This document shows, one piece after another, positions 56,712-60,656 of a stretch of 64,000 nt of DNA. The notes below the pieces were generated by a model. The model was given only the letters and a program-made list of their open reading frames with translations. It searched no databases and was not told the DNA's origin. Each line of letters starts with the position of its first letter. Position 1 is the stretch's first letter. A program made the translations under genes and the position numbers. Source of the stretch: Acidobacteriota bacterium (GTDB lineage: Bacteria > Acidobacteriota > Terriglobia > Terriglobales > Acidobacteriaceae); contig QIAP01000046.1 in the NCBI GenBank assembly GCA_003225075.1, forward strand, positions 1 to 64,000, given 5' to 3'.

Positions 56712-57236
56712 CTACTTTGTAATCACTCCGCATGCAATGCGGTCGCCGGCGTTCCCCGCGGGATCGGTCTTCATGTCATCGGGCTTAGCGTGAATCACAA
56801 TCGCGGTCCCGCCATTACTGAACAGGGAGTGGCTGTCGTCGCCCATATTCACGGCCTTGTTCACGAGTGTCTCCTTGGCGGTGCCACTCTCTGTAACGGT
56901 GAAATTAGGCATGTCCCCAGCGTGCGGGCCCTCTGGATTCTGCAATCCATGTTTCTTGTTGTCAGGATTGAAGTGCGGGCCTGCGGACTTGAAGTCCGGC
57001 ACGTCGCATTTTGGATTTTGATGAATATGGATAGCATGCTCGCCGGGAGGAAGATTATTAAGATCGAGTCTGATCTTCACACCTTGCTTTTGCGGCGTCA
57101 GGGTTGCGGTGCCCACACTCTCGCTATTCCCATTCTTCAGATGGATAACTTTCTTGCTGCCTTTGGTCGCGCCTATCAAAGGGACTGCGCTGATGGCTAT
57201 TGAGAATGCAATGCTAGCTAAAATTTTGGTTGTCAT
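56712..57236 (-). CDS. sodC: Cu/Zn superoxide dismutase, exported
   Basis: SodC (174 residues) converts superoxide to oxygen and peroxide in the periplasm. It has a signal peptide ([19 protein letters not shown]), the copper-ligand box GEHAIHIHQ, the zinc-loop region [12 protein letters not shown]...GPHAGDMPN with its His and Asp ligands, and VIHAKPDD near the end. The two cysteines (in KCDVPD and RIACGVI) can form the conserved disulfide. It is a single gene, next to other peroxide-related genes but 143 bp from the next unit. Confidence 0.95.
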
Positions 57237-57379: not shown

Positions 57380-59905
57380 TCACAATTCTTCTACTTTTTT
57401 CTGCAACTCGCCCGCTATCCACTGCGGATCGCTCTCGGGCGGGAATTCAATTGGCGAACCGATGCGAACCCAAATTTTGCGTGGCGGGGCGAATTTCTTT
57501 CCCGCGCTCTTGACTTCAAACAGGCCACCAATGCGCACGGGCAGGATTGGGATCCGCAGATTGTTCGCCAATAAACCTATGCCAGACTGGAAGGGTTGTA
57601 AGTTGCCGGTCCTGGTGTGATGACCCTCAGGAAAGACCAGTACGCTGTAGCCGCGATCTACAGCATCTCCGGCGTAGGCAAAGCTCTTGCGGAATCCGGC
57701 CTGGCGGGGCAGGGGAAAAAGGTTTAGCAGGGCCACGCCTAGTGTCCACTTCAACCGGTCGTAGATTCGGCTGAAAAATCCACGCGTAAGCGGCGGAGTG
57801 CGAAGTGATTCGAGTGCTTCTCCTCCAGTCGCGGTGGCCAAGCGGTGCCGCAGCCGGGCAGGAAGGGCGGTGAGGATGAAACCGAGGTCCACGTCATCAA
57901 TGTGGTTGGAGACCACAAGGACAGGGCCTCGCACGGCGCGTAGATTCTCGCGGCCTTCGACGCGGGGCAATCCTAATAGCATGATTGCCGGACGAACCAG
58001 CAGATAATAAGCGAGCAGGCGAATCCATGTGACGGGCCAACGCAATACCCATCGTGGATAGTGATACGCGACCTTCTCTCTGTTAGTGTCACGCAGCATG
58101 CGTTCTAAGTCGCCGACAGTGCAGGCGGCAGCGAAGCGGGTTTCGCTTAGGTCCACCTGATAGCGATCTTCAAGCGCGCTCAAGAGTTCGACGCGATCAA
58201 GCGAGCTGAGGTTTAAGTCGGATTCCAAGTTGGTCTCTGCAGACGAACGGGCCAAGCGACGTCTCGAGATGCGCGATATCAATTCAGTCAGTGGGCTTGA
58301 ATCTATTTGAGTCGGAGGATGGGCTGCGAACCGCGCCTGGATCTCATCGCGGATGATATTCACGCGAGCCTTTTGGGTAGGAGTTCGAGGAAAATCGGCT
58401 TGCGGCCACACATACCAACATCGCATTCGCTGGTATTCAGCTAGAGCGTCATTGGCTCGCTTTACGATGGGCTCTGGATCGAGTTTAGAGTCATGCAGAA
58501 TCAGCACGGCGCACGGCTCAGCGTTGCCGTCGCGTTCCCGGCCAACAACGACGCAGTCGCGTACCTCGGGCTGGCGCCGTAGGGTGGCCTCAAGGTCCTC
58601 CGGATAAACGTTCATACCCGCGGGTGTGACGATGACGTCCTTCTTGCGGCCTTTGAAGTAGAGGTTGCCTTCAGGGTCGAGCGCACCGATGTCCCCGGTG
58701 CGATACCAACCTCCCTGGCCGGCGACCGGTTGCAACACTCGCTCCGTCCAGTACGCGCTTGCAATGCCCTGTCCGCGGACCAGAATCTCGCCGTCGTCGG
58801 CAAGTCTGATCTCCCGGCCGGGAAGCACCTTGCCGATTGAGCCTTTACCAAGGCGGAAGGGGTGATTGACACTAATGAGCGAAGTCGTCTCGGTCAATCC
58901 ATAACCCTGAACGACGGCATATCCCAGGCGGCCCCAGAACTCCTCGGTCTCACGGTCGAGCGTTGCGCCGCCACAGATGAATGCCCAAAACTTCCAGCCG
59001 AAATCGCGATGAACCCGGCGGAAAATCCACCAGCGCCGCAGGAAATGCTTGCCCTCTGCGGCACGAAACCGCTGGTGGAACTGTTCGAGACGACCGCTGT
59101 CTTCCAAATCACGATTAATCTTGTCCTTCAACGATTGAAGCATGCGCGGAACCGCGACGAGGACTGAAACCCGCTCTCGCCGAATTGTTTCTATAACCTT
59201 GGAAGGGTTGAGGACAGTTTGAAAAATCACTGTTCCGCGCAGCAATGGCGGTAGAAACATTCCGAGGAACTGACCGAAGACGTGGCTCAACGGCAGCAAG
59301 TTCAAAAATCGGATGGGATGCACGAAGCGTTCGTACTTGGGATATTTTCGAATTTCAGTTTCGAGCGGGATGATGTTGGCAAGCACGTTCCCGTGCGTGA
59401 TTACTACGCCTTTGGGTTCCGCTGTGGTGCCGGAGGTGAAGACGATTTCCAGGGTGTCGCTAGCTTTGAGTTCTGCCGCAGGATAGGGCGCATTTGAATG
59501 TTGGGCAACGTGGTTTACCAGGTCTTCCAAACTAATTGTGGAGACACTTCCGTTCTGCTGTAGATGTGTGCGGGAGCAGAGCAGCAATTTGGTATTGATT
59601 CGCTGAGAAACACGCAAGACGAAGTCTGCTGCGGCGGCATCGTCCATCGGAACCACGATCGCGCCTCGCAATGCACAGCCAAAGAAAGCAACCACCCATT
59701 CCGCGCAGTTCTCGCCCCACAGAATAACGTGGTCGCCCCTGCCAATGTGGAGAGCTTCGAGTTCGCGCGCAAATTGGAACGCCGTTTCGGCAACTCGCCG
59801 GTAGCTCCAACGCTCGATGCGGTATCCGCGGCGGTGAACATAGGCGGAATCAAAACTATGCTGCAGAAAGATGTTCAGGTAATCGGTAAGAGAATTCCGT
59901 TCCAT
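57380..59905 (-). CDS. Three-domain fusion: acyl-CoA/ACP ligase, acyl carrier domain and 1-acylglycerol-phosphate acyltransferase
   Basis: This 841-residue protein is an Aas-type fusion with an added carrier domain. Residues about 1-500 form an AMP-binding ligase (FTSGTTAEPKGVVITHGN, VQGYGLTETTSLISVNHP, WYRTGDIGALDPEGNLYFKGR). About 535-605 is an acyl carrier-like domain, with the phosphopantetheine Ser in LNLSSLDRVELLSALED. About 640-841 is a PlsC-type acyltransferase with NHIDDVD (NHx4D) and VFPEGHHTRTG (FPEG). Fatty acids could be activated, held on the carrier and passed to a lysophospholipid, for membrane repair or a special lipid. It lies 25 bp downstream of the selenoprotein candidate on the same strand, so the two are probably one operon. 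Confidence 0.88.
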   Translation of the reverse strand: MERNSLTDYLNIFLQHSFDSAYVHRRGYRIERWSYRRVAETAFQFARELEALHIGRGDHVILWGENCAEWVVAFFGCALRGAIVVPMDDAAAADFVLRVSQRINTKLLLCSRTHLQQNGSVSTISLEDLVNHVAQHSNAPYPAAELKASDTLEIVFTSGTTAEPKGVVITHGNVLANIIPLETEIRKYPKYERFVHPIRFLNLLPLSHVFGQFLGMFLPPLLRGTVIFQTVLNPSKVIETIRRERVSVLVAVPRMLQSLKDKINRDLEDSGRLEQFHQRFRAAEGKHFLRRWWIFRRVHRDFGWKFWAFICGGATLDRETEEFWGRLGYAVVQGYGLTETTSLISVNHPFRLGKGSIGKVLPGREIRLADDGEILVRGQGIASAYWTERVLQPVAGQGGWYRTGDIGALDPEGNLYFKGRKKDVIVTPAGMNVYPEDLEATLRRQPEVRDCVVVGRERDGNAEPCAVLILHDSKLDPEPIVKRANDALAEYQRMRCWYVWPQADFPRTPTQKARVNIIRDEIQARFAAHPPTQIDSSPLTELISRISRRRLARSSAETNLESDLNLSSLDRVELLSALEDRYQVDLSETRFAAACTVGDLERMLRDTNREKVAYHYPRWVLRWPVTWIRLLAYYLLVRPAIMLLGLPRVEGRENLRAVRGPVLVVSNHIDDVDLGFILTALPARLRHRLATATGGEALESLRTPPLTRGFFSRIYDRLKWTLGVALLNLFPLPRQAGFRKSFAYAGDAVDRGYSVLVFPEGHHTRTGNLQPFQSGIGLLANNLRIPILPVRIGGLFEVKSAGKKFAPPRKIWVRIGSPIEFPPESDPQWIAGELQKKVEEL

Positions 59906-59930: not shown

Positions 59931-60497
59931 CTAGTCCCGTCCTACACCCAGCGCATCGGCAACGCGATTGATGTAGTTGAACCAGGAGGCGATCAAGGTA
60001 ATTTGAAGGATGGCCTTGTCATCGAAGCCGGCGGTATGAAGCCGGTCATGGTCGTCCTTCCAGACTTTGGTGGCGTCCTTCGTCAACTTTACGACATAAT
60101 CGAGCATGACCCCCTCCTGGTCAGTTATCGGAGCGGTGGTGTAGTCCTTCTCCAGGGCTTCGACGAGTTCTTTGTCGAGGGTCACTCTACGCAGAAACTC
60201 TGCGTGGGACTCGATTCAATAGACGCACCGGTTGGTCACCGAGACCACGGTAGCGATCATCTCGTGCTGGCGGCGCTGAAGCGGCAGATCGGGTGACATA
60301 AGCACGCCGTAGGTGGCGAAGGCATGGTACAGAGCGTCTGGGATCAAACTGTGCGAGGCAACGATCTGCGCTCCGCCTTCTTCCGTCGGGTGGACGGGAC
60401 TGGCGTATTCCTGCGGATAAAGTCCCCTCTGACTTTCCATGGCGTTACGCAGTTTCTCGTTTGCTTCTGAGACCGGAACGGTGTGAATCCAAGTCAT
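59931..60497 (-). CDS. AhpD-like peroxidase-related selenoprotein (CMD family), UGA at residue 94 read as selenocysteine
   Basis: The frame is continuous from ATG 60497 to a stop at 59931 except for one TGA at 60216-60218. On both sides the sequence fits the uncharacterised peroxidase-related (AhpD/carboxymuconolactone decarboxylase-like) family: [16 protein letters not shown] at the start, [18 protein letters not shown] before the UGA, and [10 protein letters not shown], then [10 protein letters not shown] and [21 protein letters not shown] after it. The family's CxxCxxSH redox motif reads CVY-U-IESH, so UGA takes the place of the second Cys. A bSECIS-like hairpin follows (60189-60205). The protein would be 188 residues with Sec94. 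It should reduce peroxides or act as a thiol/selenol oxidoreductase. Standard annotation would split it into two genes. The upstream TTG at 60578 is disfavoured because the family starts near MTWI. Confidence 0.85.
60189..60205 (-). promoter_or_regulatory. bSECIS-like selenocysteine insertion hairpin
   Basis: In the mRNA, ACGCAGA and UCUGCGU form a perfect 7-bp stem around a GUU apical loop, starting 11 nt after the UGA. The first loop base is a G, 18 nt from the UGA. Known bacterial SECIS elements have a small loop with an early G, placed about 16-37 nt after the UGA. Confidence 0.75.
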
Positions 60498-60656
60498 AAA
60501 ATTAAAGACTTTCGATGGCTTGTTGCCGTAAAATGACTTCGTTAAACCAAGGTACACGCTGTAGGTTTGATATGCCAAGTCCGATCACTGGTTGATTTGG
60601 GTTGCCAGGTTCGACAGATTCATTCGCGGTTCCCCCCGCGCGGAGGATTCCAGTCG

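Follow-up and report, generated by a model that had tools for sequence, protein, structure and literature searches.

AhpD-like proteins with a CxxU motif, in which selenocysteine (Sec) occupies the second position, have been described from the Sargasso Sea (2005) and GOS surveys within COG2128 (PMC1088965, PMC2398784), and a 2026 review table lists TIGR01926 with CxxU (PMC13188914). The active sites of two Cys-containing relatives comprise a proton relay, Glu118-Cys130-His132-Cys133-His137 in M. tuberculosis AhpD and Glu36-Cys48-Tyr50-Cys51-His55 in PA0269 from Pseudomonas aeruginosa, the latter reducing H2O2 only weakly (PMC3141380). Two NCBI (seleno)protein models, NF041238 AhpD_rel_CFYUT and NF053654 GroundWater_YciW, also contain a related AhpD-like core.

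Here we analyse a locus in a contig of a soil acidobacterium (the window, i.e., the whole 64,000-nucleotide stretch of DNA under study) that very probably encodes a selenoprotein of this kind and not a nonsense-mutated gene. It shares with the Sargasso Sea and GOS proteins the superfamily, the TIGR01926 model, a CxxU motif with Sec second and a bacterial SECIS with a G in the apical loop. As compared by family model and motif, the published members are marine, whereas the present subfamily belongs to soil and groundwater Acidobacteriota and to Gemmatimonadota; it is almost wholly of the Sec form in our sample, whereas Cys homologues are numerous in the AhpD-like families published so far. The protein is not a member of NF041238 (59.2 bits, cut-off 175) or NF053654 (34 bits, cut-off 310), since both scores lie far under the cut-offs, and no selenoprotein-specific NCBIfam model reaches its cut-off on it. 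A search of the openly searchable literature found no publication naming the acidobacterial subfamily. Selenocysteine use is already established for enzymes of the AhpD-like CxxU kind; the acidobacterial member is new and well supported.

An AhpD-like frame with a single in-frame UGA

The initial annotation had described two in-phase minus-strand frames split by one UGA, with the UGA at the second Cys of a CxxC motif and Sec as residue 94, and all three points are borne out. The frames run from 60578 or 60497 to 60216 and from 60215 to 59931, and translation from 60497 to 59931 gives 188 residues with the TGA at 60218-60216 as the sole interruption. The ATG at 60497 (MTW), a start also used in relatives (MTW/MAW), makes the UGA codon 94; an alternative TTG start at 60578 overlaps the promoter-like TTGGCA (Table 1). 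The residues around the UGA read TNR-C-V-Y-[UGA]-I-E-S-H, and the UGA aligns with the second CxxC cysteine of 2pfx and 3c1l, both of which carry Cys at the Sec position, and with the Cys of the Cys-form orthologue described below.

Table 1 Features of the locus in the window.
Feature	Position	Strand	Basis and remarks
AMP-binding + phosphopantetheine + PlsC-type acyltransferase fusion	57380..59905	-	Pfam; functional link to the predicted selenoprotein doubtful
Predicted AhpD-like selenoprotein gene	59931..60497	-	188 aa; ATG 60497-60495; TAG stop 59933-59931
Putative bacterial SECIS hairpin, 7 bp, loop GUU	60189..60205	-	Frozen synonymous sites; compensatory change in L050/L051; within bSECIS constraints
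Codons of proton-relay residues E79, C91, Y93, Sec94, H98	60204..60263	-	Alignment A1; spacing 12-2-1-4
In-frame UGA, predicted to be read as selenocysteine (Sec94)	60216..60218	-	TGA in 75/75 unique aligned orthologues; Cys in one without selA and selB
Promoter-like TTGGCA-N18-TACCTT	60549..60578	-	Upstream of ATG; aligned by eye, no statistics

The read-through protein reaches 115.3 bits with the TIGR01926 model (peroxidase-related; cut-off 81.8) and 34 bits with Pfam CMD, and misses the cut-off of the AhpD subfamily model TIGR00777 (19.2 versus 191.95 bits). An AlphaFold2 model with Cys replacing Sec has a pLDDT of 90.5, and its best PDB matches are AhpD-like peroxidase-related proteins: 2pfx, 2prr, 6k40, 3c1l and 2oyo, the best matches in both sequence and fold, align with a TM of ~0.8 and are 22–34% identical. 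Overall, the fold resembles that of M. tuberculosis AhpD only weakly (TM 0.5–0.6). Residues E79, C91, Y93, Sec94 and H98 match the E-C-[H/Y]-C-H spacing of the AhpD relay, with Sec replacing the second Cys of M. tuberculosis AhpD and PA0269. The earlier proposal that Sec94 is an active-site residue is backed by this alignment, and because the relay residues share their spacing with both enzymes, Sec94 is most probably the nucleophile in a thiol or peroxide cycle of the AhpD type.

Operon coupling to the lipid-handling fusion protein, also proposed in the initial annotation, finds little backing. The fusion gene begins 25 nt after the selenoprotein stop, but the linkage is lineage-limited: among 70 loci with enough flank, the fusion gene lies directly downstream in 9 and within ~2.5 kb in 20, and is not found nearby in 41. 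The proposed lipid link is weak because the linkage is not conserved and a promoter-like element lies upstream of the selenoprotein gene. The form TTGGCA-N18-TANNTT is roughly conserved in relatives, as judged from an alignment by eye without statistics. Many relatives also conserve a further upstream sequence outside the coding region, ATTTTACGGCA (window 60524-60534). Downstream on the same strand, a frame at window 56712-57236 resembles Cu/Zn superoxide dismutase by eye; a similar frame is found in only two related loci.

Conservation of the UGA and the downstream hairpin

Orthologues were collected from 100 relatives and a public genome collection. The close ones are 58–84% identical (alignment A1), and the hosts are Acidobacteriota, Gemmatimonadota-labelled MAGs and one Latescibacterota-labelled MAG. 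In each of the 75 unique orthologues of the alignment this codon is TGA, and the core region contains no further in-frame stop. Rough dN/dS values, many pairs being near synonymous saturation, are ~0.21 before the UGA and ~0.13 after it, indicating that the second half is under protein constraint at least as strong as that on the first. Decay of the frame after the UGA in close relatives, named in the initial annotation as the outcome that would point to a simple nonsense mutation, is not seen; relatives keep both the frame and the UGA.

A perfect 7-bp stem, ACGCAGA-GUU-UCUGCGU, follows the UGA. The G-first-loop hairpin was correctly placed 11 nt on by the initial annotation, in that base pairing begins at the 11th nucleotide past the UGA, leaving 10 nt between. 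The bSECIS model calls for a loop of 3–9 nt, a stem of 4–16 bp, a G at loop position 1 or 2, a distance of 16–37 nt from the UGA and an MFE of -7.5 kcal/mol or lower (PMC13188914), and the hairpin satisfies all of these constraints with its 3-nt GUU loop, 7-bp stem, UGA-to-loop spacing of 17 nt and free energy of -8.2 kcal/mol when folded in isolation (z -4.5). When the peptide is recoded synonymously 20,000 times, only 83 of the resulting sequences contain a comparable hairpin. An Rfam scan of the window at gathering thresholds gives no match. For the 42 nt that follow the UGA, the MFE does not differ significantly from that of synonymous shuffles (z -0.8), and we therefore place weight on the specific-hairpin test and on the freezing of synonymous sites. 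Across the six hairpin codons (+4 to +9), normalised synonymous entropy is 0.04, compared with 0.71 in other conserved columns (permutation p ~1e-5), and the six lowest-entropy six-codon windows all overlap these codons. A compensatory change from C-G to G-C occurs in the two most divergent orthologues (L050 and L051), and in another AhpD-like group three of nine sequences have U-A in place of C-G. Since the hairpin hardly varies, with one compensated pair in two divergent sequences, we regard covariation as modest evidence and synonymous freezing as the main evidence.

Sec machinery, a Cys-form orthologue and further UGA-containing genes

The source genome (4.79 Mb, 97.6% complete, in many contigs) contains the complete set of genes that the initial annotation had suggested looking for: selA (545 bits), selB (369 bits) and selD (350 bits) all score over their cut-offs, and tRNA-Sec is detected at 70 bits and also called by ARAGORN, with anticodon TCA. 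We interpret a second selB-like match, on contig C192 (193 bits, below the cut-off, model positions 1-260), as probably EF-Tu. The selD gene (L020; G000:C227:44343-45317) itself contains one in-frame TGA and is therefore probably a selenoprotein gene too. Among the relatives, selA is present in 23/23 genomes with an orthologue versus 54/77 without one (p 0.001), and genomes lacking an over-cut-off selA hold none of the 78 TGA-containing AhpD-like matches versus 25 of the 70 stop-free ones (p 5e-10), both p-values being nominal because the genomes, through their relatedness, are not independent samples.

Among 297 genomes sampled across the phylum, a single stop-free orthologue was found (L173:1456-2016; 62% identical), in genome G112. 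It reads NRTRYCSLSH, with Cys (TGC) in the Sec column and Thr in place of the partner Cys, and its hairpin is broken, folding at -5.9 kcal/mol, which does not improve on shuffles. In this genome, which is 99% complete, selA is absent and selB is below the cut-off or absent, whereas selA is found in all 19 other genomes checked, each with a TGA orthologue. An LNRCHFC match in L173 was set aside as a different gene, not an orthologue of the selenoprotein. The Cys form nests within the Sec clade in a quick tree, which suggests a Sec-to-Cys replacement after loss of the Sec trait in the G112 lineage.

Taken over all AhpD-like genes, the 78 TGA-containing matches are distributed over 51 of the 100 sampled genomes. 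In several distinct acidobacterial groups (L136-L169; motifs CPYULDSH, CPFUTGSH, CEYULASH and CHYULQHH) a hairpin comes after the TGA, and its loop mostly opens with a G. In the source genome, a second AhpD-like gene with an in-frame TGA (L133:3838-4361 on G000:C153; NRCNYULQHH) adjoins selB convergently; because of an additional TAA in its N-terminal part, it may be decayed or mis-assembled there. In several relatives, too, a gene of this type lies next to selB, in some cases in a Cys form. A third gene (L134:2450-3300 on G000:C61; DCDYUITAH) also has an in-frame TGA and scores 75.7 bits against NF053654 GroundWater_YciW (cut-off 310).

Alternative readings and active-site chemistry

Conservation of the UGA and the hairpin, the Sec machinery, continued purifying selection and the hairpin-less Cys orthologue together strongly favor a selenoprotein over a nonsense mutation. 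Where a UGA breaks a CxxC motif in a many-contig assembly, one might suspect that an AhpD-like gene of the ordinary Cys type has recently acquired a nonsense mutation or was missequenced, but the recurrence of the same UGA in independent assemblies refutes this, purifying selection on both sides of the UGA and the frozen hairpin point the same way, and we consider this reading practically eliminated. Hardly more credible is the production of two small proteins, the first stopping at the UGA and the second restarting at GTG 60185: mechanical ORF calling does list each half as an open frame, yet the relay residues lie on both sides of the UGA, the codons from the UGA to the GTG are highly conserved as protein and the structure model forms one domain. 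Decoding of UGA as Trp or Cys, through reassignment or general read-through, would formally leave the frame open like any recoding, but UGA is an ordinary stop in this genome, ending 11 of the 35 large frames of the window; moreover, the genome has the Sec machinery, whose presence goes along with that of UGA-containing members, and the Cys form has lost the hairpin, leaving this reading very improbable as well.

A rival compatible with the selenoprotein reading, since it concerns only the chemistry, is that the protein is not a peroxidase but a thiol-disulfide adaptor or a catalyst of another CMD-superfamily reaction, such as reductive dehalogenation (Bmp8). The CMD superfamily is functionally diverse, Bmp8 is among the structural matches of the model, PA0269 is a poor H2O2 reductase, and no conserved ahpC or reductase is recognised among the recurrent neighbors. 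The Cys orthologue also points in this direction: it has Thr for the partner Cys (TRYC), so that C91 may not always be needed. The Sec forms, on the other hand, keep the full AhpD proton relay, and we hold a non-peroxidase role to be a serious but less favored option, an AhpD-like peroxide or thiol cycle being somewhat the better bet. An unlikely further reading is that members of the subfamily are in effect bound to Sec and rely chiefly on a single selenol; the one lineage without the machinery kept just a Cys at that site, with Thr for its partner, which would suggest a chemistry other than the two-thiol AhpD cycle.

What the computation shows is the UGA, the hairpin, the machinery in the genome, the conservation, the fold and the active-site residues; Sec insertion itself, the chemistry and the substrate are inferences. 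The locus would encode one AhpD-like (peroxidase-related, CMD superfamily) selenoprotein, in which the SelB-bound SECIS hairpin just past UGA94 would bring Sec-tRNA(UCA) to the codon and create a C91-x-Y-Sec94 motif. By analogy with the characterized relay, Sec94 would act as the nucleophile, with H98 and E79 activating it for attack on a peroxide or on a thiol/disulfide substrate; C91 would then resolve the selenenyl group, and cellular thiols would reduce it again.

The subfamily offers a clean natural experiment, in which the UGA and hairpin accompany the Sec machinery and have both disappeared where it has been lost. Because standard-code ORF calling splits the gene into two fragments, UGA-containing redox enzymes of this type are easily under-counted in soil Acidobacteriota.
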